Shown here: positions 3,284 through 51,323 of the stretch, one piece after another
Layout: each line of letters begins with the position of its first letter
Numbering within the stretch: position 1 is the stretch's first letter
NCBI GenBank assembly: GCA_003210315.1
Contig: QCVQ01000007.1
Span: 1-56,640 of the forward strand
Reading direction: 5' to 3'
From: Synechococcus sp. AG-686-F08
GTDB taxonomy: Bacteria; Cyanobacteriota; Cyanobacteriia; PCC-6307; Cyanobiaceae
DNA: 56,640 nt
Made by a program: the position numbers and the translations under genes
The notes under the pieces: model-generated
What the model was told of the DNA's origin: nothing
What the model saw: the letters and a program-made list of their open reading frames with translations, nothing else
The model's database searches: none

Positions 3284-3763
3284 TTACCATTTTTTATACG
3301 GCAAGAATTTTCCACACATCGTAATCTTCACCCGATCACCTTTTGGGTCTTCAACCTTGTCCACATCCAACGTAAAATCAATGGCACTCATGATTCCATC
3401 ACCAAACTTTTCCTGAATAACATCCTTAAGAGGCATGCCATAGACCTGCATGATTTCATAGAAGCGATAAATCAGTGGATCCGTAGGAATCACTGGGTCT
3501 AGACTTCCTTTAGTCGGAAACTCTTGCAGCGCAGCAGTAATGGCTGGGTCCAGAGCCAACAAAGTTGCCAATTTCTCCGCTTCTTCAGGGGATGCGGTTG
3601 CCTGTCCATAAAAAAGTGAAGCGATCCAAACCTCATCGAGCCCAAGGGCTGCTTCTAAATCAGCGAAGGAAAGCCCCTTGGCCTTTTTTGCCGCCATAAG
3701 CGAAGCAGTCAGCGTTGATGGGGAAGGACCAGCCAGTGACGGAGCTAAAGCAGATGTTGTCAT
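3284..3763 (-). CDS. cynS: Cyanate hydratase (cyanase)
   Basis: The product is a 159-residue cyanase that converts cyanate and bicarbonate to ammonia and CO2, a nitrogen source for marine Synechococcus. The N-terminal helical domain ([30 protein letters not shown]) precedes the catalytic C-terminal domain. The family's Arg and Glu lie in [11 protein letters not shown] and the active-site Ser in [11 protein letters not shown]. The ATG at 3763 was chosen over an upstream in-frame TTG because the protein then begins MTTSALAP and matches the family length better. It converges on the nirA block and ends at a hairpin terminator. Confidence 0.95.
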
Positions 3764-6646: not shown

Positions 6647-8788
6647 ATGAGCGGCGTCATGCTTCCCGAGAATCTCTACATCAATCGGGAGCTCAGCTGG
6701 ATCGCCTTCAACAGGCGCGTTTTAGCTCAAGCGCTTGACCCAAGAACACAGTTGTTGGAACAGGCCAAATTCAGCGCCATTTTCAGCAACAACCTTGACG
6801 AATTTTTCATGGTGCGCGTGGCGTCCTTGAAGTCTCAGGTTGAAGCGGGCATCGACAAGCAAAGTGAAGACGGGCGAAATCCTCGGGAGCAGCTCCATGA
6901 GATTCGTCACCAGCTCTCAGCTCTCCTCGAAGCCCAGCAAAAGCATTACCTCGACCATCTCCGCGTAGGGCTGGAAGACCACGGGGTTTTCCTGTTCAAC
7001 TACCAACAACTGAACGACGCCCAACAACATTGGGTGGACAACTTCTTTCAGACGGCGATTTTTCCTGTCTTAACGCCATTAGCGGTGGATCCTGCCCATC
7101 CCTTTCCATTCGTTAGCAATCTCAGCCTCAACGTCGCCGCCCTGATCCACGACCCAGAGTCGGGTCAACGCCAACTGGCCCGAGTGAAGGTTCCTCAGAA
7201 GATCCTTCCTCGCTTTGTCTCGATACCCATTGAGCTTGGCGGCCCTGATGCCAAGCCATTGCACACAGCAGTGCCTCTGGAGCAGGTGATTGCCTTCAAT
7301 CTCAGCCTGCTCTTCCCAGGAATGAGCATCGAAGGCCATTACTTTTTCCGGGTCACTAGGGATGCAGACCTGGAACTACGGGACCTTGAAGCCGACGATC
7401 TCATGATCGCGATCGAACAAGGCTTACGAAAGCGACGGATGGGTGGTGAAGTTGTCCGCCTGGAAGTGGCTGCGGACACACCTCAAGATGTGATTGAGAT
7501 GTTGATGGACGGCATGTCCGTCGTCGAAGAAGACCTCTACAGGGTGCATGGACCTCTCGGGCTCGATGACCTCTTCGGCTTAATGAGTCTGCCGCTGCCA
7601 CTTCTTAAAGACGCAACCCATTCAGGTCAAACTCCCGCCGTCCTTAGCCGTGCTCAAAGGGGCAGGTTGGAAGACGGATCGATCAAAGAAGAGGAATTCG
7701 AAAGCATTTTCTCAGTCGTGCGTCGCCGCGATGTTCTCCTGCATCACCCTTACGACCTGTTTTCCACGTCGGTCGAAGAGTTCATCAATCAAGCGGCGGA
7801 CGATCCCCTCGTCATGGGGATCAAGATGACCTTGTACCGCACGTCCAAAGATTCTCCGATTATCGCGGCCCTCATCCGTGCATCAGAAAATGGGAAGCAG
7901 GTGATGGCCCTTGTCGAGCTGAAGGCACGTTTCGATGAAGACAACAATATTCAATGGGCCAAACATCTTGAGCGCTCAGGAGTGCATGTGGTCTACGGCG
8001 TGATTGGCCTGAAAACGCATACCAAGATTGTTCTGGTCGTACGCAAAGAAAAAGAGCGCTTGCGCAGCTACGTCCATATCGGCACTGGCAACTACAACTC
8101 CAAAACCTCTCGTCTTTACACCGATCTAGGCCTGCTTTCAGCACGACCGGAACTCGGCCAAGACCTCGTGGAGTTGTTTAACTACCTAACCGGCTTCTCT
8201 AAACAACAAAGCTTCCGCAAATTACTCGTTGCTCCTGTCTCCTTGCGAAAAGGAATGGAGCAATTGATTCGTCGGGAAATCGAACATGCCCACCAAGGAC
8301 GTGGTGGATCAATCAAAGCCAAAATGAATTCTCTGGTGGATCCCGGAATCATTGCTCTTTTGTATGAAGCCTCCCAAGCCGGAGTCACTATCCAATTAAT
8401 CATCAGAGGGATGTGCAGCCTTTACCCAGGGCTCGAAGGTATTAGCGACAACATCAGCGTCGTCAGCATTATCGGTCGCTTCTTAGAGCATTCACGCATC
8501 TTTTGGTTTAACAACGGCGGCGAACCAGAGGTCTTCATCGGAAGCGCCGACTTAATGCCGCGCAATCTTGACCGACGCGTCGAAGCGGTTGCCCCCATAG
8601 AAGAACCAGACCTCAGAGCACAGCTCGAGGGCCTGCTTGAACGCTACCTAACGGACAACAGGGGTGCTTGGGACATGCAAACCGACGGGACTTTTATCCA
8701 ACGTCATCCCGATGGAGAAGAACGCAACTCCCAATTGCAATTAATGGATGACTGGAAAGGGGGTGCACTAATTCAACCCAATCGTTAA
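6647..8788 (+). CDS. ppk: Polyphosphate kinase 1
   Basis: The 713-residue protein makes long-chain polyphosphate reversibly from ATP. It has the four PPK1 domains in order: N-terminal (PENLYINRELSWIAFNRRVL), head, C1 and C2. The autophosphorylated histidine is His458 in GLKTHTKIVLV and the second conserved histidine is His615 in RFLEHSRIFWF. Length is usual for cyanobacteria. The ATG at 6647 is used; a second in-frame ATG lies four codons on. It stands alone, followed by a 170-bp gap and the sigma factor gene. No terminator is visible after it. Confidence 0.97.
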   Translation: MSGVMLPENLYINRELSWIAFNRRVLAQALDPRTQLLEQAKFSAIFSNNLDEFFMVRVASLKSQVEAGIDKQSEDGRNPREQLHEIRHQLSALLEAQQKHYLDHLRVGLEDHGVFLFNYQQLNDAQQHWVDNFFQTAIFPVLTPLAVDPAHPFPFVSNLSLNVAALIHDPESGQRQLARVKVPQKILPRFVSIPIELGGPDAKPLHTAVPLEQVIAFNLSLLFPGMSIEGHYFFRVTRDADLELRDLEADDLMIAIEQGLRKRRMGGEVVRLEVAADTPQDVIEMLMDGMSVVEEDLYRVHGPLGLDDLFGLMSLPLPLLKDATHSGQTPAVLSRAQRGRLEDGSIKEEEFESIFSVVRRRDVLLHHPYDLFSTSVEEFINQAADDPLVMGIKMTLYRTSKDSPIIAALIRASENGKQVMALVELKARFDEDNNIQWAKHLERSGVHVVYGVIGLKTHTKIVLVVRKEKERLRSYVHIGTGNYNSKTSRLYTDLGLLSARPELGQDLVELFNYLTGFSKQQSFRKLLVAPVSLRKGMEQLIRREIEHAHQGRGGSIKAKMNSLVDPGIIALLYEASQAGVTIQLIIRGMCSLYPGLEGISDNISVVSIIGRFLEHSRIFWFNNGGEPEVFIGSADLMPRNLDRRVEAVAPIEEPDLRAQLEGLLERYLTDNRGAWDMQTDGTFIQRHPDGEERNSQLQLMDDWKGGALIQPNR

Positions 8789-11832: not shown

Positions 11833-14415
11833 ATGCTGAGCACCTATCGCGAGAACGCCAAGGAACGGGAAAGCCAGGGCATCCCGCCGCTTCCTTTAGA
11901 TGCCGCTCAGACCCAGGCCCTAACGGAACTTCTTCAAAAGCCACCGGCGGGGGAAGAACAAACCTTGCTGCACCTGCTGAGCGATCGCATTCCCCCTGGA
12001 GTGGATGAAGCCGCCTATGTCAAAGCAACCTGGTTGAGTGCCGTCGCCCAAGGCAAAGCGTCCAGCCCTTTGGTGGCACCTTTGGAGGCGGTGCAACTGC
12101 TCGGAACAATGGTGGGCGGATACAACGTCGCCGCACTGATCGAACTGCTGAAGCATCCAGACGAAACACTTGCGACCTGCGCCGTTGAAGGTCTAAGTCG
12201 CACCCTTTTGGTCTACGACGCTTTTAACGACGTCATGGAGCTGGCACCCAGCAACCGTTATGCCCAACAGGTCGTGGACAGCTGGGCTGCAGCGGAATGG
12301 TTTACCCGGCGAGATCAGCTCGCCAAAGAGATCACCGTCACCGTGTTCAAGGTGGACGGCGAGACCAACACAGACGACCTCTCCCCAGCCACCCACGCAA
12401 CCACGCGTCCAGACATCCCACTGCACGCCCTGGCGATGTTGGAAACCCGCGATCCAGAGGGACTTAACACCATCGAAACCCTGAAGAGGAAAGGTCATCC
12501 TGTGGCCTATGTGGGTGATGTGGTCGGCACTGGAAGCTCTCGGAAAAGCGCCATCAACTCTGTGCTTTGGCACACCGGCAATGACATCCCCCATGTCCCC
12601 AACAAACGCGCCGGCGGAGTGATCATTGGCGGCAAAATTGCACCCATCTTTTTCAACACAGCGGAAGATTCAGGCGCCTTACCAATCGAGTGCGATGTCA
12701 GCGATCTAAACACCGGTGATGTGATCACGATTCGCCCCTACGCCGGCACGATCGAACGCGACGGCTCGGTGATCAGCCGATTTGACCTCAAGCCGAGCAC
12801 GATCAGCGACGAAGTTCGTGCTGGCGGTCGCATCCCACTGATGATTGGCCGCGCTCTTACCGACAAAGTGCGCAGCCAACGTGGACTCACCCCGTCTGAA
12901 ACGTTCATCCGGCCAAGCGCTCCTGCCGACACCGGCAAGGGCTTCACCTTGGCTCAAAAGATGGTGGGTAAAGCCTGCGGTCTTCCAGGCGTTCGTCCTG
13001 GCACAAGCTGTGAGCCGCTGATGACCACCGTTGGCAGTCAAGACACCACGGGGCCCATGACGCGGGACGAAATGAAGGAGTTGGCCTGCCTGGGCTTTTC
13101 CGCTGATTTGGTGATGCAGAGCTTTTGCCACACCGCCGCCTACCCCAAACCAGTGGACCTGCAGACCCAAAAGGACCTGCCTGATTTCTTTGCCCAACGC
13201 GGCGGTGTCGCCCTTCGTCCCGGTGACGGCATCATCCACAGCTGGCTCAATCGCATGCTCTTGCCCGACACCGTGGGCACAGGCGGTGACAGCCATACCC
13301 GGTTCCCGCTCGGTATTTCTTTTCCAGGAGGCTCCGGGGTTGTGGCCTTTGCTGCCGCCATCGGCGCCATGCCCCTCGATATGCCCGAATCGGTCTTGGT
13401 CCGGTTCAGTGGCTCTCTTCAGTCGGGGGTCACACTGCGCGATGTGGTGAATGCAATCCCCTGGGTCGCGATCCAAAAGGGCCTACTCACCGTGGAAAAG
13501 TCCAACAAAAAAAACGTCTTCAATGGCCGAATCATGGAAATTGAAGGGTTACCGGATCTCAAGCTGGAGCAAGCTTTTGAGCTCACGGACGCCACGGCCG
13601 AACGCTCTTGCGCTGGCTGCACAATCAAACTCTCCGAAAGCACGGTGAGTGAATATCTGAGCAGCAATGTTGCCCTGCTCAAAAACATGATTGCGCGCGG
13701 CTACAGCGATGCCCGCACCCTGGCGCGACGGATCAAGGTGATGGAGGACTGGTTGGCCAATCCCCAACTCCTTCAAGCCGATGACGACGCTCAATACGCC
13801 GAAGTGATTGAGATCAATCTGGATGAGCTCACCGAGCCCGTTCTCGCCTGCCCAAACGATCCCGACAACGTGAAACTGCTCAGCGAAGTGGCTGGCGAAT
13901 CGGTTCAGGAGGTGTTCATCGGCTCTTGCATGACCAACATCGGCCATTACCGCGCCGCGGCCAAAGTGCTGGAAGAGGCCGGCGACATCGCCGCCAGGCT
14001 CTGGGTTTGCCCACCCACGCGCATGGACGAAGACATGCTCAAGCAAGAGGGCTACTACGCCACATTTGAGGCGGCAGGAAGCCGCATGGAAATGCCAGGC
14101 TGCTCGCTCTGCATGGGCAATCAAGCCCGGGTGGATGACGACACCACCGTGTTCTCCACCAGCACTCGCAACTTCAACAACCGATTAGGCAAAGGGGCAC
14201 AGGTCTACCTGGGCAGCGCCGAATTAGCAGCTGTCTGCGCCCTACTCGGACGCATTCCCACACCCGATGAATACCAAAAGATTGCCGCGGAGAAAATCGA
14301 CCCACTCTCCGCAGAGCTGTACCGCTATCTCAATTTCGACCAGATCGATAACTTCGTCGAACAGGGACGGGTGCTGAGCGCCTCGGAACAAGCGGAGGTC
14401 ATGGCCGGCGCCTGA
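11833..14415 (+). CDS. acnB: Aconitate hydratase B
   Basis: An 860-residue AcnB-type aconitase interconverting citrate and isocitrate in the partial TCA cycle, feeding 2-oxoglutarate to nitrogen assimilation. The N-terminal HEAT-like domain (from about residue 1 to 160) and the swivel domain ([12 protein letters not shown]) precede the catalytic domains, the order that distinguishes AcnB from AcnA. [4Fe-4S] ligands are Cys699 ([10 protein letters not shown]), Cys757 and Cys760 (GCSLCMGNQ). It is followed after 19 bp by the ClC gene. The ATG start is not preceded by a strong ribosome binding site. Confidence 0.97.
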
Positions 14416-20228: not shown

Positions 20229-21323
20229 GTGATTGGTGCTGGTGCCGTAGGCGCCGGCACGGCTTGGCATCTGGCCCGTCAAGGACACAACGTTTCGTTG
20301 ATCGATCCGTCCTTGGAAGCGCCAATTCAGCGCAACAACAGCCTTGACCAAGCCCTCAATGGCACGACGGCGTCGCTTGGGGTCTTGATGGGGCACGTGT
20401 TTCGTCGTTCCAGCGGACGAGCTTGGCGGCTGCGTCAACGCAGCATGGAGCTTTGGCCTCAATGGGTGGAGAGGCTGAACCATCCGGATACGCCCCTGCA
20501 GCTCGACTCTCCACTGATCCAGCTGGCTTCTGACCCCGTGGAATCAGAACGCATGCAAAGTCTTGCCAATCAACGCCGCGAGCTTGGACTCGAAAGTTTT
20601 AGTTCAGCGAACTCAGAGTCCCATCAGATTCCATGGCCCAATCCTGGGCATGGAGGATTGTGTTCTCACAACGACGGCCGCATTGACCCCCTTGCCCTGC
20701 AACGGGCGCTCAGACGCAGCCTCAAAACAGAAGAGGTGGCACTCTTACCGGCTCGCGTCACAGCACTCCATCGACAGAATCCTGATGAAGGAAACCGCTG
20801 GGGCCTGGAACTGGACACAGGCCACAACACCCACTACGACGTTGTTGTGATCTGCACAGCCTTGGCCAGTGCACTGTTGCTGCAACCGCTTGGGCACGAG
20901 TTTCCGATGGAAGCAGTCTTAGGCCAGGTCCTCGATCTCCAAGTTTCAGCCACCACCAAGGCCTGGGATCATTGGCCAGCAGTGCTGGTCTGCAATGGAG
21001 TGAATCTGATTCGCCATGGACACAACAGGCTTTGGCTTGGAGCAACCCTGGAACACGGCGAAGAACCATCCACTGAGGAGCCTTCAATCATGCGGCGATT
21101 GGATGGCCTGGCACCGAACTGGCTACAGGAGGCCGAGGTCGTCGATCAATGGCATGGCCTCAGGGCCAGACCCTCTGGGCGGCCAGCTCCATTGCTTGAG
21201 GTCTTGGAGCCAGGCTTGATTCTGGCCAGCGGTCACTATCGAAACGGAGTTCTTTTGGCTCCTGCTACGGCAGACTGGGTTGGTCAGCAAATGATGAATA
21301 CAACCAAGATTCCCGCTTCCTGA
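20229..21323 (+). CDS. FAD-dependent oxidoreductase of the D-amino acid oxidase family
   Basis: The 364-residue flavoprotein begins with the Rossmann FAD motif GAGAVGAGTAWHLA and ends with a DAO-type C-terminal strand (GLILASGHYRNGVLLAPATADWV). Family members are glycine/sarcosine/D-amino acid oxidases such as ThiO; the substrate here is not known. The only normal start, GTG 20229, leaves the first beta strand short (the frame reads IAV just before it), so a non-standard ATT at 20223 is conceivable. It lies 14 bp behind psbQ, likely in one transcript. Confidence 0.85.
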   Translation: MIGAGAVGAGTAWHLARQGHNVSLIDPSLEAPIQRNNSLDQALNGTTASLGVLMGHVFRRSSGRAWRLRQRSMELWPQWVERLNHPDTPLQLDSPLIQLASDPVESERMQSLANQRRELGLESFSSANSESHQIPWPNPGHGGLCSHNDGRIDPLALQRALRRSLKTEEVALLPARVTALHRQNPDEGNRWGLELDTGHNTHYDVVVICTALASALLLQPLGHEFPMEAVLGQVLDLQVSATTKAWDHWPAVLVCNGVNLIRHGHNRLWLGATLEHGEEPSTEEPSIMRRLDGLAPNWLQEAEVVDQWHGLRARPSGRPAPLLEVLEPGLILASGHYRNGVLLAPATADWVGQQMMNTTKIPAS

Positions 21324-43953: not shown

Positions 43954-45060
43954 GTGTCCGTACTCAAGAACCTCCGCCGGCGTTTCACCGCCAAACCAGT
44001 CATGCAGGACTGGCCCGGACTGATTGAAGCCTATCGATCCTGGCTTCCCGTTTCTTCAGCCACTCCAGTGATCACCTTGCATGAGGGTGCAACGCCACTC
44101 ATTCCGGTCCCATCTGTGGCGGAACGCATTGGCCGCGGAGTGAAGGTTTTCGTGAAGTACGACGGTCTTAATCCCACTGGATCCTTCAAAGACCGTGGAA
44201 TGACCATGGCAATCAGCAAGGCCAAAGAAGCTGGTTGCGAAGCGGTGATTTGTGCCAGCACGGGCAACACCAGTGCTGCCGCTGCCGCCTATGCCCGTCG
44301 TGGCGGAATGAGGGCCTTCGTATTGATCCCAGACGGATACGTCGCACAAGGAAAACTGGCGCAGGCTCTTGTCTATGGAGCTGAAGTGTTGGCGATCCGG
44401 GGGAATTTCGACCGTGCTCTCGACATCGTTCGCGAAGCAGCCGAGAAATACCCGATCACCTTGGTGAATTCGGTGAATCCTTACCGACTGCAAGGACAAA
44501 AAACCGCTGCCTTTGAAATCGTCGATGCCCTTGGAGATGCTCCCGATTGGCTGTGCATCCCGATGGGCAATGCCGGAAATATCACGGCCTACTGGATGGG
44601 ATTCCAGGAATATCAACAAGCCGGTCGCAGCCGGCGCTTGCCGCGAATGATGGGATTCCAGGCCAGTGGCTCGGCACCACTTGTGAATGAAACCACCGTG
44701 AGCGATCCAGAAACCATCGCGACAGCGATTCGGATCGGAAATCCAGTGAACCGAGAGAAGGCCATCGCAGCCCGTAAAGCCAGCAACGGAGCCTTCCTTG
44801 ATGTCACCGATGAGGAAATCATCGATGCCTACAAACTTCTCGGTGGCCAAGAAGGAATCTTCTGTGAACCCGCCAGTGCAGCCTCTGTGGCGGGCTTAAT
44901 CAAACGTGCGGCAGAGGTTCCAGACGGATCAACGGTGGTCTGTGTCTTAACAGGCAATGGCCTGAAAGATCCGGACTGCGCCATCAACAACAATGACGCC
45001 TCTTTCTACGCCGATCTTGATCCGGATCTGAGCACCGTAGCCAAGGTGATGGGCTTCTAA
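43954..45060 (+). CDS. thrC: Threonine synthase
   Basis: The 368-residue PLP enzyme makes threonine from O-phosphohomoserine. The PLP lysine is Lys79 in NPTGSFKDRGM, with ASTGNTSAAAAAYARR and VLTGNGLKDPD. No N-terminal SAM-regulatory extension is present. GTG start. It is the last gene before the putative origin; in related marine genomes threonine synthase is also near the end of the standard numbering that begins at dnaN. Confidence 0.95.
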   Translation: MSVLKNLRRRFTAKPVMQDWPGLIEAYRSWLPVSSATPVITLHEGATPLIPVPSVAERIGRGVKVFVKYDGLNPTGSFKDRGMTMAISKAKEAGCEAVICASTGNTSAAAAAYARRGGMRAFVLIPDGYVAQGKLAQALVYGAEVLAIRGNFDRALDIVREAAEKYPITLVNSVNPYRLQGQKTAAFEIVDALGDAPDWLCIPMGNAGNITAYWMGFQEYQQAGRSRRLPRMMGFQASGSAPLVNETTVSDPETIATAIRIGNPVNREKAIAARKASNGAFLDVTDEEIIDAYKLLGGQEGIFCEPASAASVAGLIKRAAEVPDGSTVVCVLTGNGLKDPDCAINNNDASFYADLDPDLSTVAKVMGF

Positions 45061-45151
45061 AGCGGTTCAGAGGAGGCCCAATGTCAGCAGGATCTGATCG
45101 GTTCAGAGCAGAAACTGCCTGCGGAATCCACCGATTCCTGCTGACAAAAAC

Positions 45152-45160
45152 AGTGGAAAA
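45152..45160 (-). other. DnaA-box-like site TTTTCCACT
   Basis: One mismatch to TTTTCCACA on the minus strand, in the putative origin. Confidence 0.5.
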
Positions 45161-45194
45161 CTGAAGACAACTCGTCCTCCCAAGCAGTCACAAC

Positions 45195-45224
45195 TTTTCC
45201 CCAGGCTGTGGGTGATGGGGAAAA
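45195..45224. other. Pair of oppositely facing TTTTCCCCA sites
   Basis: TTTTCCCCA on the plus strand (45195-45203) faces the same nonamer on the minus strand (45216-45224), one mismatch from TTTTCCACA. A related TTCTCCCCA is at 45232-45240. They are candidate DnaA sites of a lineage-specific variant. Confidence 0.45.
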
Positions 45225-45251
45225 AGAGCAATTCTCCCCATCGCTCTTTTT
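45214..45251. repeat. Interleaved inverted repeats (A-B-A'-B' order)
   Basis: A = GATGGGGA (45214-45221) pairs with A' = TCCCCATC (45235-45242). B = AAAAAGAGC (45221-45229) pairs with B' = GCTCTTTTT (45243-45251). Because the arms alternate, only one hairpin can form alone, or both as a pseudoknot in RNA. The B hairpin with its T-run resembles a bidirectional terminator. Confidence 0.6.
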
Positions 45252-45266
45252 GCATTCCACAACGCA

Positions 45267-45283
45267 CCAACTTCAAAAGTTGG
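45267..45283. repeat. Short hairpin CCAACTT-caa-AAGTTGG
   Basis: A perfect 7-bp inverted repeat with a 3-nt loop in the putative origin. It adds to the unusual density of inverted repeats there. Confidence 0.5.
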
Positions 45284-45314
45284 AGAAACAGAAGGGTTTG
45301 ATCTCGTTTCCCCT

Positions 45315-45323
45315 GTTTCCACA
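45315..45323 (+). other. DnaA-box-like site GTTTCCACA
   Basis: One mismatch to TTTTCCACA; it lies 12 bp before the AT-rich nested palindrome and is part of CCTGT-ttcc-ACAGG (45312-45325). Confidence 0.55.
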
Positions 45324-45334
45324 GGATCTACTAC

Positions 45335-45373
45335 GGCTGTTTTAGTAGTTCTTTTAAAAGAATAAAAACAGCC
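45335..45373. repeat. Nested inverted repeat with AT-rich core, candidate DNA-unwinding element
   Basis: GGCTGTTTT (45335-45343) and AAAACAGCC (45365-45373) are perfect inverted arms. Between them lies a perfect 14-bp palindrome TTCTTTTAAAAGAA (45349-45362). The stretch 45340-45369 is almost all A and T, next to a DnaA-box-like site. It could form a cruciform or open during initiation. Confidence 0.5.
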
Positions 45374-45473
45374 CTAAAGCCGGGGAACACGAAAAAAACG
45401 TGAAACCATTGCGCTTCTCCCGAGCCTGTGAAATCGTGAGGAGAGATTTGTTCCCGCCGTTGACTCGGACCTC

Positions 45474-46631
45474 ATGAAATTGGTCTGTTCCCAGGCAGAA
45501 CTCAACGCAGCTCTGCAGTTGGTTAGTCGGGCTGTTGCCTCACGTCCAACCCATCCGGTGTTGGCCAATGTGTTGCTCACCGCTGATGCCGGCACTGATC
45601 GGCTCAGCCTCACAGGTTTTGATCTGAATTTAGGAATTCAGACGTCACTGCCTGCTTCTGTCGAAAGCAGTGGTGCGATGACTCTGCCCGCCCGCTTGCT
45701 TGGTGAAATCGTCTCCAAGCTGTCCAGCGATTCCCCTGTGTCGTTGTCCAGTGATGCGGGCGCTGACCAGGTCGAGCTCACAAGCTCCAGCGGCAGCTAT
45801 CAGATGCGTGGAATGCCCGCTGACGATTTCCCCGAGCTCCCGCTCGTGGAGAACGGCACAGCCCTACGCGTGGATCCCGCATCCCTGCTGAAAGCCTTGC
45901 GTGCAACCTTGTTCGCAAGCAGTGGTGATGAAGCCAAACAGCTCCTCACAGGAGTGCATCTGCGCTTCAATCAGAAACGTTTGGAGGCCGCATCCACCGA
46001 CGGGCACCGGCTAGCGATGTTGACAGTTGAGGATGCCTTGCAGGCCGAAATCAGTGCTGACGAGTCTGAGCCTGATGAATTGGCCGTGACGCTGCCAGCA
46101 CGCTCTCTGCGGGAGGTAGAGCGATTAATGGCGAGCTGGAAAGGTGATGATCCGGTCAGCCTGTTTTGTGAGCGAGGTCAGGTCGTTGTACTCGCGGCCG
46201 ATCAGATGGTGACCAGCCGCACCCTGGAAGGGACCTATCCCAATTACCGCCAGTTGATTCCTGACGGTTTTAGCCGCACGATTGATCTCGATCGTCGAGG
46301 CTTTATTTCTGCTTTGGAACGGATCGCTGTCTTGGCTGATCAACACAACAACGTCGTCCGGATCGCGACAGAACCAGCTACTGGATTGGTTCAGATCAGT
46401 GCTGATGCCCAAGACGTGGGTAGTGGTTCTGAGTCTTTACCTGCCGAGATCAAGGGCGATGCCGTACAAATTGCTTTCAACGTTCGCTACGTGCTGGATG
46501 GCCTCAAGGCCATGGATTGTGATCGCGTCAGGTTGTCTTGCAATGCCCCAACGACCCCAGCGATCCTCACCCCTGCCAATGATGATCCAGGCCTCACCTA
46601 TCTGGTGATGCCTGTTCAGATCCGTTCCTGA
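45474..46631 (+). CDS. dnaN: DNA polymerase III beta subunit (sliding clamp)
   Basis: The 385-residue clamp has three repeated clamp domains (MKLVCSQAELNAALQLVSRAV first; LLTGVHLRFNQKRLEAASTDGHRLAM second; the third ending YLVMPVQIRS). It tethers the polymerase to DNA. It directly follows the putative origin and in marine Synechococcus is conventionally the first gene of the chromosome. dnaA is not in the window. The ATG has only a weak ribosome binding site. Confidence 0.97.
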   Translation: MKLVCSQAELNAALQLVSRAVASRPTHPVLANVLLTADAGTDRLSLTGFDLNLGIQTSLPASVESSGAMTLPARLLGEIVSKLSSDSPVSLSSDAGADQVELTSSSGSYQMRGMPADDFPELPLVENGTALRVDPASLLKALRATLFASSGDEAKQLLTGVHLRFNQKRLEAASTDGHRLAMLTVEDALQAEISADESEPDELAVTLPARSLREVERLMASWKGDDPVSLFCERGQVVVLAADQMVTSRTLEGTYPNYRQLIPDGFSRTIDLDRRGFISALERIAVLADQHNNVVRIATEPATGLVQISADAQDVGSGSESLPAEIKGDAVQIAFNVRYVLDGLKAMDCDRVRLSCNAPTTPAILTPANDDPGLTYLVMPVQIRS

Positions 46632-47484: not shown

Positions 47485-49818
47485 GTGACCCAGTCCTCTC
47501 ATGCGGTTGCGGCATTTGATCTTGGGGCAGCTCTGCGCCAGGAAGGGCTCACCAAAACGGATTACAGCGAAATTCAGCGTCGGCTTGGACGGGATCCCAA
47601 CCGCGCTGAGTTGGGCATGTTTGGTGTGATGTGGTCGGAGCATTGCTGTTACCGCAATTCCAGACCCCTGTTGAGTGGTTTCCCAACAGAAGGCCCACGC
47701 ATCCTTGTGGGCCCTGGAGAGAACGCTGGCGTGGTGGATCTGGGTGAAGGTCACCGTTTGGCGTTCAAAGTTGAAAGCCATAACCACCCCTCGGCTGTTG
47801 AGCCGTTTCAGGGAGCTGCCACGGGGGTTGGTGGCATCCTGCGTGACATTTTCACGATGGGCGCTCGGCCGATTGCGTTGCTGAATGCCCTGCGTTTTGG
47901 ACCACTGGACGAACCAGCCACCCGTGGATTGGTGGAAGGGGTTGTTGCTGGTATTGCCCATTACGGCAATTGCGTTGGCGTGCCCACCGTGGGTGGAGAG
48001 GTGGCATTCGATCCTTCCTATCAAGGCAATCCCCTGGTGAATGCCATGGCCTTGGGCCTGATGGAAACGGATGACATCGTCCGTTCGGGAGCCGCAGGGG
48101 TCGGTAATCCGGTGGTGTATGTCGGGAGCACCACGGGCAGAGATGGCATGGGAGGTGCCAGTTTTGCGAGCGCTGAGCTCAGTGCGGATTCACTGGATGA
48201 TCGCCCTGCGGTGCAGGTGGGAGATCCCTTTCTCGAGAAGGGATTGATTGAGGCTTGCCTGGAAGCCTTTCAAAGCGGTGATGTTGTCGCGGCCCAGGAT
48301 ATGGGTGCTGCGGGTCTGACCTGTAGTTGTTCGGAGATGGCCGCTAAGGGAGATGTGGGCGTCGAGTTGGACCTCGATCGAGTGCCCGCGCGCGAAAAAG
48401 GCATGACCGCCTACGAATTCCTGCTTTCGGAATCGCAAGAGCGCATGTTGTTTGTGGTGCGTTCTGGTCGGGAGGAGCAGCTGATGCAGCGTTTCCGGCG
48501 TTGGGGGCTGCAGGCAGCGGTTGTTGGTCGCGTTTTGGAGGAGCCTGTGGTGAGGGTGTTGCAACACGGGGCTGTGGCGGCAGAAGTTCCCGCCAGGGCT
48601 TTGGCAGAGGACACACCGATCAACAAGCACGAGCTGCTTTCTGAGCCCCCAGATGACATCCAGACGCACTGGTCCTGGTGTGAATCCGATCTTCCTAGTC
48701 CTGGCAGCGATCGCGATTGGAATGCGGATCTGCTGCGTTTGCTGGATGACCCCACGATTGCCAGCAAACGTTGGATTTATCGCCAATACGACCAGCAGGT
48801 GTTGGCTAATACGGTGATTCGAGCCGGTGGTGCTGATGCTGCAGTGGTTCGTCTGCGTCCTCAACAGGGAGATGCATCGCTGCAAACATCTCAGCGTGGC
48901 GTTGCGGCCACGTTGGATTGTCCCAATCGTTGGGTTGCGCTTGACCCAGAGCGGGGAGCGATCGCAGCGGTGGCTGAGGCTGCCCGCAATCTCAGCTGTG
49001 TTGGAGCCCAGCCGATCGCGGTGACCGACAACCTGAATTTCCCATCCCCGGAAACCCCTAAGGGGTATTGGCAGTTGGCGATGGCATGTCGCGGTCTATC
49101 CCATGCCTGTCGCACCTTGGGCACCCCTGTCACCGGTGGCAACGTCTCCCTCTACAACGAAACGAGGGCAGATGATGGCAGTCTTCAGCCCATTCACCCC
49201 ACGCCTGTGGTGGGCATGGTGGGACTGGTGGAAGATCTCAACCGCTGCGGAGGTTTGGCATGGCGTCAACCTGGCGATCTTGTGGTGCTGCTTGGTGTTT
49301 CCACCGATGAGGAGGGGAATGAAAGTGTTGGCTTAGCGGGCAGTAGCTATCAGGGAGTTGTTCACGGGTTGCTCACTGGCCGTCCCCCGAGCGTGGATCT
49401 GGAATTGGAGGGTCAAGTTCAGGCTTTGGTCCGTCAGGCGTTTGCCCAGGGCGTGTTGGCTTCAGCCCATGACAGCAGTGATGGTGGTCTAGCAGTAGCG
49501 CTTGCAGAAAGTGCCCTGGCCTCTGGCCTTGGTGTTGATCTCAAGCTGCCCCATGGGTCTGCTCGCTTGGATCGTGTTTTGTTTGCTGAAGGCGGTGCAC
49601 GCATCGTCGTTTCAGTTCGTGCAGAACAGCGCAGTGCTTGGCACGCTTTGGTGGCCTCCCAAGAGCATCAAAGCGTTCCTGTCACAGAGATTGGAACCGT
49701 TGCCGACCATGGTTGTTTCCGGTTAGCGGTGGGCAATCATCCAGTGCTTGATCTTGCTGTTGAGAGCCTGCGAGAGCAATACGAACAAGCCGTTCCCCGT
49801 CGCCTTGGAGCGGTTTGA
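47485..49818 (+). CDS. purL: Phosphoribosylformylglycinamidine synthase II
   Basis: The 777-residue small-type PurL uses ATP, FGAR and ammonia (from PurQ) to make FGAM. Motifs: [18 protein letters not shown], the ATP-site [25 protein letters not shown], and [18 protein letters not shown] start. Its stop TGA overlaps the purF ATG (TGATG), coupling two purine genes. G greatly exceeds C on this strand, as expected right of the origin. Confidence 0.97.
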
Positions 49819-51323
49819 TGCAGAATCTTCAAACCCATCCGAAGTCGAGGCGGCCGGTGCATCAGCTCGAGATAGAGCGTCCCGATCGCATGGAAGAAGC
49901 CTGCGGTGTTTTCGCTGTTCAGGCCCTGGAACAGCCGGTGGCGAACCTGGTGTATTTCGGTCTTTATGCCCTGCAGCATCGGGGTCAGGAATCCGCTGGA
50001 ATTGCTGTTTTCAACGAAGGAAAGGTCAGGCTCCACAAGGACATGGGCTTGGTGAGCCAGGTGTTTGATCAGGATGTGCTCGAGCGCATGCCTGGTGGTT
50101 TAGCCGTGGGCCATAACCGTTATTCCACCACCGGGAGTAGCAAGGTTTGTAATGCCCAGCCCGTGGTCTTGATGACCCGTCTCGGCCCCTTTGCGTTGGC
50201 GCATAACGGCAATCTTGTGAATGCAGCAGAGCTGCGAGCTCAGGTGGACGACGGTGAAGTGGAGTTCACCTCCACGACGGATTCAGAGTTGATCGCTTAC
50301 GCGGTTCAGCAGGCTGTGGATGGGGGTTTGGATTGGACAGAGGGGATCAAAGCGGCCGCGGCCCAGTGCCAGGGGGCTTTCAGTTTGGTGATTGGAACCT
50401 CCGATGCCCTGTACGGCTTGCGTGATGGTTATGGCATTAGACCGCTGGTGTATGGCTACATCGGTGATCAGGATCTTGGGCACTGGGTACTGAGTAGTGA
50501 AACCTGTGGGCTCGACATCATTGGCTCTCCGTTCGTTGCTGATGTTGAACCTGGCGAATTAGTGGTGTTTCGTTGCGGGGATCCCACACCAGAGCGTCAT
50601 CGCTGGATTGAACCCACCACCCGCATGTGCGTGTTTGAAATGATCTATTTCGCTCGCCCTGACAGTCGTTTCTTTGGAGAATCCTTATATAGCTATCGGC
50701 AGCGCATCGGCCAGATCCTGGCCCGTGAATCCGCGGTTGAGGCGGATCTTGTGATTGGTGTTCCTGATTCCGGAATTCCAGCTGCAATCGGTTATTCCCA
50801 GAGCAGTGGCATTCCCTATGCCGATGGACTGATCAAAAACCGCTATGTCGGCCGAACCTTCATCCAGCCGACTCAGGCGATGCGTGAGGCTGGGATTCGC
50901 GTGAAGCTCAATCCACTTCCGGATGTTTTAAACGGCAAAAGAGTTCTGGTGATTGATGACTCGATCGTTCGTGGAACCACCAGTAAAAAATTGGTTCAGG
51001 CTCTTCGTGATGCAGGTGCCATTGAGGTGCACATGCGTATTAGTTCACCACCGGTCACCCATCCTTGCTTCTACGGCATCGACACCGATACACAGGATCA
51101 ATTGATTGCTGCTCGACTCACGCTGCAAGAGATTGAGGAGCATCTCAAGGTGGATTCCCTGGCTTATCTCAGCAAGGAAGGGATGGTGGAAGCTGCGCAT
51201 GCGCAGTCAGAACATTTCTGTACAGCTTGCTTCGATGGGAACTACCCCGTTCCGATGGACGCCTCTATCAAGGCGAGCAAATTGATGCTTGAACCAGCCG
51301 GGGTGGCGGCAACGCATCTCTGA
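49818..51323 (+). CDS. purF: Amidophosphoribosyltransferase
   Basis: The 501-residue enzyme starts purine synthesis from PRPP and glutamine. A 28-residue propeptide precedes the N-terminal nucleophile Cys29 (EEACGVFAVQ), so self-cleavage is expected. The glutaminase domain is followed by the phosphoribosyltransferase with the PRPP loop VLVIDDSIVRGTTS. Cys residues in HPCFYG and HFCTACF match the iron-sulfur type of the enzyme. ATG 49818 overlaps purL's stop. Its stop codon abuts that of the convergent topoisomerase gene without any gap. Confidence 0.97.
   Translation: MQNLQTHPKSRRPVHQLEIERPDRMEEACGVFAVQALEQPVANLVYFGLYALQHRGQESAGIAVFNEGKVRLHKDMGLVSQVFDQDVLERMPGGLAVGHNRYSTTGSSKVCNAQPVVLMTRLGPFALAHNGNLVNAAELRAQVDDGEVEFTSTTDSELIAYAVQQAVDGGLDWTEGIKAAAAQCQGAFSLVIGTSDALYGLRDGYGIRPLVYGYIGDQDLGHWVLSSETCGLDIIGSPFVADVEPGELVVFRCGDPTPERHRWIEPTTRMCVFEMIYFARPDSRFFGESLYSYRQRIGQILARESAVEADLVIGVPDSGIPAAIGYSQSSGIPYADGLIKNRYVGRTFIQPTQAMREAGIRVKLNPLPDVLNGKRVLVIDDSIVRGTTSKKLVQALRDAGAIEVHMRISSPPVTHPCFYGIDTDTQDQLIAARLTLQEIEEHLKVDSLAYLSKEGMVEAAHAQSEHFCTACFDGNYPVPMDASIKASKLMLEPAGVAATHL

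Follow-up and report, generated by a model that had tools for sequence, protein, structure and literature searches.

We analyzed positions 1 to 56,640 of contig QCVQ01000007.1 of Synechococcus sp. AG-686-F08 (GCA_003210315.1), a stretch referred to here as the window, around a 413-bp noncoding gap that an earlier note had placed between thrC and dnaN and read as the chromosomal replication origin; matches to TIGR00260 and TIGR00663 bear out the identity of the two flanking genes (Table 1). The same arrangement, with thrC 5′ of dnaN, is found in 78 of 80 fetched dnaN loci (the best 80 of 159 found, the nearest dnaN relatives being Synechococcus records), and the other two (L014 and L046) are too short upstream. 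The same genome contains a dnaA gene whose product carries three Pfam domains (N-terminal, ATPase, and C-terminal). No Rfam family (at gathering scores) or tRNA was found within the window, and positions 44500 to 46631 returned no plasmid relatives at the megablast level. Directly after thrC, positions 45082 to 45146 harbor a strong hairpin (TGTCAGCAGGA ... TCCTGCTGACA), perhaps a terminator.

Table 1. Features of the thrC–dnaN gap and of perfect-box clusters elsewhere. Box retention denotes at most one mismatch to TTTTCCMCN, taking the best of seven places within 3 bp, with the window counted among the 80 aligned gaps.
Feature	Position	Strand	Evidence or conservation
thrC (threonine synthase), 5′ neighbor of the gap	43954..45060	+	TIGR00260, 1.9e-99
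Intergenic region between thrC and dnaN, 413 bp, very probably oriC	45061..45473	.	boxes, conservation, AT content, skew
DnaA box A, TTTTCCACT, one mismatch	45152..45160	-	kept in 59/80
DnaA box B, TTTTCCCCA, one mismatch	45195..45203	+	kept in 61/80; among most conserved 9-mers
DnaA box C, TTTTCCCCA, one mismatch	45216..45224	-	kept in 72/80
Weak DnaA box D, CATTCCACA, two mismatches	45253..45261	+	kept in 26/80
Weak tandem box E, GTTTCCCCT, abuts box F	45306..45314	+	kept in 56/80
Tandem box F, GTTTCCACA, one mismatch	45315..45323	+	kept in 57/80
Two DnaA-trio-like repeats (CTA CTA; 3′-GAT on the other strand), 4 bp past box F	45328..45333	.	alignment
AT-rich inverted repeat	45335..45373	.	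DNA fold -9.2 kcal/mol, z -2.4
AT-rich stretch, presumed unwinding element	45341..45370	.	mean AT 0.74 over 80 gaps
Two conserved blocks (CATTGCGCTT, CCTGTGAAATCGTGAGG), perhaps dnaN promoter region	45405..45442	+	conservation 0.79-0.87
dnaN (beta clamp)	45474..46631	+	TIGR00663, 1.1e-95; PF00712, PF02767, PF02768
Convergent perfect boxes on C8 of the same genome (L011), upstream of DUF2811 gene 7268-7567	7776..7829		
guaA-linked box clusters in L255, L256, L257, L260, L261, L262, and L264	about 2.0-2.4 kb in		

Four boxes in the gap depart by a single mismatch from the consensus DnaA box TTTTCCACA, and no perfect copy is present; the near-matches previously listed at 45152, 45195, 45216, 45253, and 45315 are all found at those positions. 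Sites with at most one mismatch number 20 across the window, four of them in the gap, and only five of 1125 sliding 413-bp intervals reach four such sites, with starts at 44951 to 45151 and all lying over the gap. The expected number is 0.146, which gives a Poisson probability of 1.7e-5 for four or more in one such stretch. A looser motif (TTWTNCACA with two mismatches) yields 11 sites in the gap, a count reached by 34 of the 1125 intervals and thus not unusual. Perfect boxes are missing from the gap before dnaN in 67 of 79 relatives, and the sole perfect TTTTCCACA of the window, at 3308 to 3316, lies far from the origin. The number of perfect boxes was also tried as an origin finder and discarded as uninformative: AG-686-F08 has 19 matches genome-wide against 25 to the reversed pattern, and Synechococcus WH7803 has 14 against 15; their positions, unlike their count, revealed the clusters described below.

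To place these sites in the context of related sequences, we aligned the gap of the window with those of 79 relatives, which are not independent of one another (80 gaps in all, L046 left out), using up to the last 440 bases of each. In many relatives, near-consensus boxes keep a nearly constant distance from the dnaN start (about −320, −279, −258, −167, and −158), and six of 80 loci (L067, L074, L082, L083, L087, and L091) are free of boxes with at most one mismatch within 700 bp of dnaN. Conservation among 9-mers is highest at box F and the CTACTAC beyond it, at box B, and in the blocks just upstream of dnaN, with 45316 to 45324 the single most conserved; the upstream blocks are conserved about as well as the boxes. 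The window harbors two clean trios, and CTAYNAC stands at the trio place in 59 of 80 gaps, which equals its total number of occurrences in the 33.7 kb of aligned gaps, while CTAC[TG]AC[TGA]AC is found in 46. Mean AT content peaks in the stretch beyond the trios, versus 0.34 to 0.56 in the remaining 30-bp blocks from 45141 on. An AT-rich palindrome and many hairpins had been pointed out in this gap, and both are real, since the palindrome and two further hairpins (z −3.3 and −2.5) fold better than shuffles, but conservation does not rest on the palindrome: a like stem, judged by eye, appears in only four of nine folded sequences (the window, L013, L016, and L020), and we therefore rejected it as the unwinding element. 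The conserved core is the tandem boxes, CTACTAC, and the AT-rich stretch rather than the palindrome. In one genus, which we take for S. elongatus or a near relative, seven (G150) and six (G131) perfect boxes precede dnaN, with a tandem perfect pair at −152/−143 and −150/−141, respectively, near the place of boxes E and F.

Because the genome of AG-686-F08 is a fragmented draft of 1.58 Mb (64 contigs, 58.85% completeness), the skew layout was taken from the complete Synechococcus WH7803 record, which starts 173 bp 5′ of dnaN and was sampled in 40 stretches. All 18 stretches within the first 1.086 Mb have positive GC skew, and all 22 between 1.16 Mb and the record end have negative skew. Interpolation places the cumulative minimum at the dnaN end of the record (2.365 Mb) and the maximum at 1.145 to 1.185 Mb, and a finer reading puts the minimum 1850 bp into the record, ~0.5 kb behind dnaN and outside the gap itself. 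The sign switch and the minimum at the dnaN end are thus found, as sampled in this relative, in the chromosome-wide skew that the earlier note had proposed as a check. In the window, cumulative skew reaches its lowest value, about −1480, near 46000 and climbs thereafter (1-kb readings), this minimum adjoining the gap, and the G/C counts on which a change of skew had been suggested are exact (17/22 at 13201, 16/20 at 20641, 26/12 at 48481, and 23/11 at 50041).

The gap very probably serves this Synechococcus-like picocyanobacterium as its chromosomal replication origin, since its boxes exceed chance, keep their offsets, and precede the AT peak, and since the WH7803 skew switches at dnaN; the proposal made earlier is thus supported by synteny, box spacing, and skew. 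Features used to recognize an oriC are found here, namely, dnaN adjacency, a near-consensus box cluster in a noncoding gap, an AT-rich stretch, and a skew minimum (in WH7803 and the window). Counting against this assignment are the lack of perfect boxes in the gap and in most related gaps, their lack of enrichment genome-wide in AG-686-F08 (19 versus 25), a trio number below that of the published search rule, the unremarkable count of the looser motif, the kinship among the relatives compared, the fragmented state of the AG-686-F08 chromosome, and the finer WH7803 minimum behind dnaN. From the sequence, we infer DnaA binding, unwinding, and initiation at the gap: DnaA would bind the near-consensus boxes A to F, extend from the tandem pair E/F across the CTACTAC repeats, and open the AT-rich stretch at about 45341 to 45370, after which the helicase would be loaded and forks would depart both ways.

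Such an order resembles that of the basal unwinding system (BUS), which the accessible text of PMC8287927 describes as DnaA-boxes, a spacer, and DnaA-trios, and for which S. elongatus DnaA was assayed for strand separation on box and trio scaffolds. The search rule given there calls for a box or tandem boxes, a spacer of ≤16 bp, and at least three trios with a middle A. The window follows with tandem boxes, a 4-bp spacer, CTA repeats, and an AT-rich stretch, and conforms to the box and spacer parts of the rule, but has two clean trios versus the three required, and CTACGAC in some relatives breaks the middle-A rule. Predicted origins lie beside dnaN in 55 of 68 cyanobacteria in the portion of PMC4674748 available to us, which matches the earlier statement that dnaN flanks cyanobacterial origins, and that portion treats dnaN-linked origins with TTTTCCACA boxes as established. 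As far as the descriptions at hand extend, the oriC regions of S. elongatus PCC 7942 and Cyanothece 51142 (DoriC) share with the gap the dnaN neighbor, the intergenic DnaA-box cluster, and the AT-rich stretch; the boxes of the window differ in being near-consensus (TTTTCCCCA, TTTTCCACT) rather than TTTTCCACA. The origin itself is an ordinary cyanobacterial oriC of an already-known kind.

It is highly improbable that the gap is merely a dnaN promoter with regulatory DnaA boxes and that the true origin lies at a cluster of perfect boxes. Such clusters, absent from the gap, do occur on C8 (Table 1) and at C20:7954-8263 in the genome of AG-686-F08, and WH7803 has clusters of similar make-up at 177.5 kb and 1819 kb; the skew of WH7803 nonetheless changes sign at dnaN and not at 177 kb or 1819 kb. 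In 17 single-contig genomes, the distance between dnaN and the DUF2811 locus with which several of these clusters are associated (see below) ranges from 0.01 to 0.48 of the genome, and the array is thus not tied to a chromosomal position. The same reading draws on eight of 29 genomes (G138, G142, G149, G162, G175, G182, G215, and G224) with no box of at most one mismatch within 700 bp 5′ of dnaN, in which the DUF2811 array might be the origin; a ninth genome, G113, offered only 173 bp 5′ of dnaN. The boxless dnaN loci (L236, L237, L239, L242, L243, L244, L247, and L249) may have their origin elsewhere or initiate independently of DnaA. It is scarcely credible that the box-like sites arose by chance and that the orientation of genes around dnaN-purL-purF alone accounts for the skew change, for although the looser motif is unremarkable in the gap, box offsets are near-constant and conserved across 80 gaps and the skew switch in WH7803 is chromosome-wide.

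The novelty at hand rests in the arrays of perfect boxes associated with DUF2811, not in the origin. A convergent pair of the form TTTTCCACA-N25..50-TGTGGAAAA is found in 40 of 121 genomes of the family (reversed control, 0), with a span of 53 or 54 bp in 37 of the 40, where 43 to 68 was allowed. Homologs of one and the same ORF of AG-686-F08, a DUF2811 gene (PF10929), lie beside the pair in 12 of 12 fetched loci (L133 to L144), and homologs of EVE-domain, DUF1818, and Rpb6/omega-type genes do so in 11 of 12. The single genome with the pair and no DUF2811 match noted here (G003) has it <300 bp from a contig start. Like the C8 cluster, the second WH7803 cluster precedes a DUF2811 gene, whereas no DUF2811 gene was found in the 18 kb fetched around the C20 cluster (L010), which consists of a tandem plus a third perfect box; the genome has a second DUF2811 match.

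We then compared DUF2811 loci, taken as the best-scoring matches, 30 from the family search and 29 further loci from the class (L145 in both; L151 unorientable), for a total of 58. In 52 of these (24/29 family, 28/29 class), the 700 bp upstream of the WDQ codon include a perfect box; a 700-bp stretch downstream does so in 1/58, an imperfect control in that this stretch is more often coding. In the class loci (L175 to L203, all outside the family of the window), from which the step and spacing figures derive, 64 of 70 steps between same-strand boxes with at most one mismatch measure 11, 21 to 22, 32, or 44 bp, and TTGACA/T is found 3′ of every array. Measured from where the last box begins, this element stands 181 to 183 bp away in 17 of 29 loci, whereas its distance differs in the remaining 12. 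The DUF2811 arrays thus combine the phased boxes and fixed promoter place by which a DnaA-regulated promoter is recognized, with the same 12 of 29 as exceptions to the latter. Tandem perfect boxes are found in 117 of 145 class genomes, with two control matches overall; among the 33 listed genomes for which a DUF2811 place was also listed, the tandem lies within 1 kb of DUF2811 in 22 and not so in 11.

Of 121 family genomes, 112 carry DUF2811, as do 143 of the 145 sampled from the class; among 14 named control genomes, it is found solely in Synechococcus elongatus. At the order level, the DnaA C-terminal domain is missing in 46 of 291 genomes of ≥90% completeness, and in the 20 of these 46 that were listed and tested, DUF2811 is absent in 17, while it is present in eight of eight dnaA-bearing kin hand-chosen from three of the same families. 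All eight kin have one to three perfect boxes upstream of DUF2811; in the three genomes where DUF2811 persists without dnaA, no perfect box lies within 900 bp upstream, one of them having two near ones. Relative to the class sample, in which one of 142 dnaA-bearing genomes has no DUF2811, the Fisher p value is 5e-19, a figure that ignores ancestry and mixes two samples. Counter-cases include genus g9, in which four of four genomes (G009, G064, G092, and G115; 95–99% complete) carry dnaA and have neither DUF2811 nor the paired boxes, as well as G146 and four less complete genomes with dnaA and no DUF2811 match; two class genomes with no dnaA match (62% and 83% complete) retain DUF2811. In G026, a family member of 95% completeness, neither gene was found.

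These patterns suggest that DnaA at the DUF2811 arrays probably acts as a transcription regulator, given the preferred promoter distance, the varied genome positions, and the missing perfect boxes where dnaA is missing, and co-loss with dnaA points to a function of DUF2811 in the DnaA pathway. Our best reading is that DnaA controls DUF2811, which would itself act in the DnaA pathway. More tentatively, and with somewhat less than an even chance, DUF2811 may be a cyanobacterial protein dedicated to DnaA, as its partner or regulator, in a feedback loop, in which DnaA would fill the phased array at the DUF2811 promoter and so tie the level of DUF2811 to free DnaA, and DUF2811 would in turn tune DnaA activity or initiation. 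With mostly near-consensus boxes at the origin and perfect ones at DUF2811 in the family of the window, such a loop would respond to DnaA earlier than the origin.

E. coli datA and DARS are off-origin clusters at a conserved position relative to oriC, where nucleotide hydrolysis or exchange on DnaA depends on IHF or Fis. The DUF2811 arrays are likewise off-origin box clusters, potentially able to titrate DnaA, and that they serve as titration or recharging elements of this type, with DUF2811 a bystander, has perhaps one chance in a few. Besides the contrast between perfect boxes in the arrays and only near-consensus ones in most picocyanobacterial origins, this explanation would account for the C20 cluster, with no DUF2811 alongside, and for a further group of three to four perfect boxes, mostly in 20- to 22-bp steps, past the 3′ end of guaA in seven of 12 fetched loci (Table 1). 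This gene was named by a profile match in two loci and by similarity in the remainder; no ORF is common to at least eight of the 12 triple-box loci, guaA being common to seven, and its cluster has no evident promoter role, so a titration-type role is possible. With dnaN as a stand-in for oriC, the DUF2811 arrays show no conserved position; unlike datA and DARS, they accompany a promoter-like element and a gene at varied places in the genome, often at the 181- to 183-bp spacing, and that gene is usually missing where dnaA is missing.

Co-loss could also be a by-product of shared ancestry or general gene loss, which we consider unlikely. The 17 genomes without either gene span seven families, but 12 of them fall in f42 and f57, with the dnaA-bearing kin coming from other families and the counts made without a tree; five of the eight kin belong to f41, whose two dnaA-lacking genomes kept DUF2811, and genus g9 dispenses with DUF2811 in the presence of dnaA. 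On the other hand, DUF2811 tracks dnaA within two genera, g148 (neither gene in G263, both in G287) and g180 (neither in G362, both in G314 and G462), in which one and two dnaA-bearing genomes were tested, and the dnaA-lacking genomes reach 6.8 Mb in size.

Regulation of DUF2811 by DnaA would have a parallel in Bacillus subtilis, where, according to the text of PMC7198777 at hand, DnaA-box clusters outside oriC regulate genes. The DUF2811 arrays are similarly off-origin boxes beside promoters; as compared with the described B. subtilis clusters, they mark one gene family with an array in most sampled genomes of a class, often in fixed geometry, and this family is usually missing where dnaA is missing. 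Our literature search found no paper naming DUF2811, although subscription papers and locus-tag studies would escape such a search, and none joining S. elongatus, DnaA, titration, and replication initiation. Nor was a description of such arrays found under cyanobacterial DARS, DnaA as a transcription factor, or S. elongatus DnaA ChIP-seq, as judged by titles, the starts of abstracts, and portions of PMC4674748 and of PMC9640692, the latter of which mentions E. coli datA and DARS. No homologs of seqA, dam, or hda were identified in Prochlorococcus PCC9511, according to the accessible part of PMC2921402 (2010), and some cyanobacteria carry a dnaA that is dispensable for replication, its role there being an open question in the corresponding part of PMC7198777 (2020). 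DUF2811 is a testable candidate for control of DnaA or replication in cyanobacteria that bears on both questions as these excerpts pose them, and since a short gene, a phased DnaA-box promoter region, and usual absence without dnaA come together, both become testable in the laboratory strain S. elongatus PCC 7942, for which PMC7198777 describes strains with tagged DnaA.

Two AlphaFold2 models of DUF2811 are mostly helical and of low confidence (mean pLDDT 57.4 and 59.1), and searches returned no convincing relative among PDB sequences (a single match, E 0.74) and no NCBIfam match for three DUF2811 members. The sequence pattern raised the idea of a ribbon-helix-helix fold, which these weak models neither favor nor oppose. 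Finally, AATTCTTA lies 21 to 43 bp before the first box in 15 of the 29 class loci (mononucleotide shuffles give an expectation of 0.08) and is perhaps the site of another protein or an unwinding element; in 11 of those 15 loci it is found exactly 21 bp ahead of the first box.
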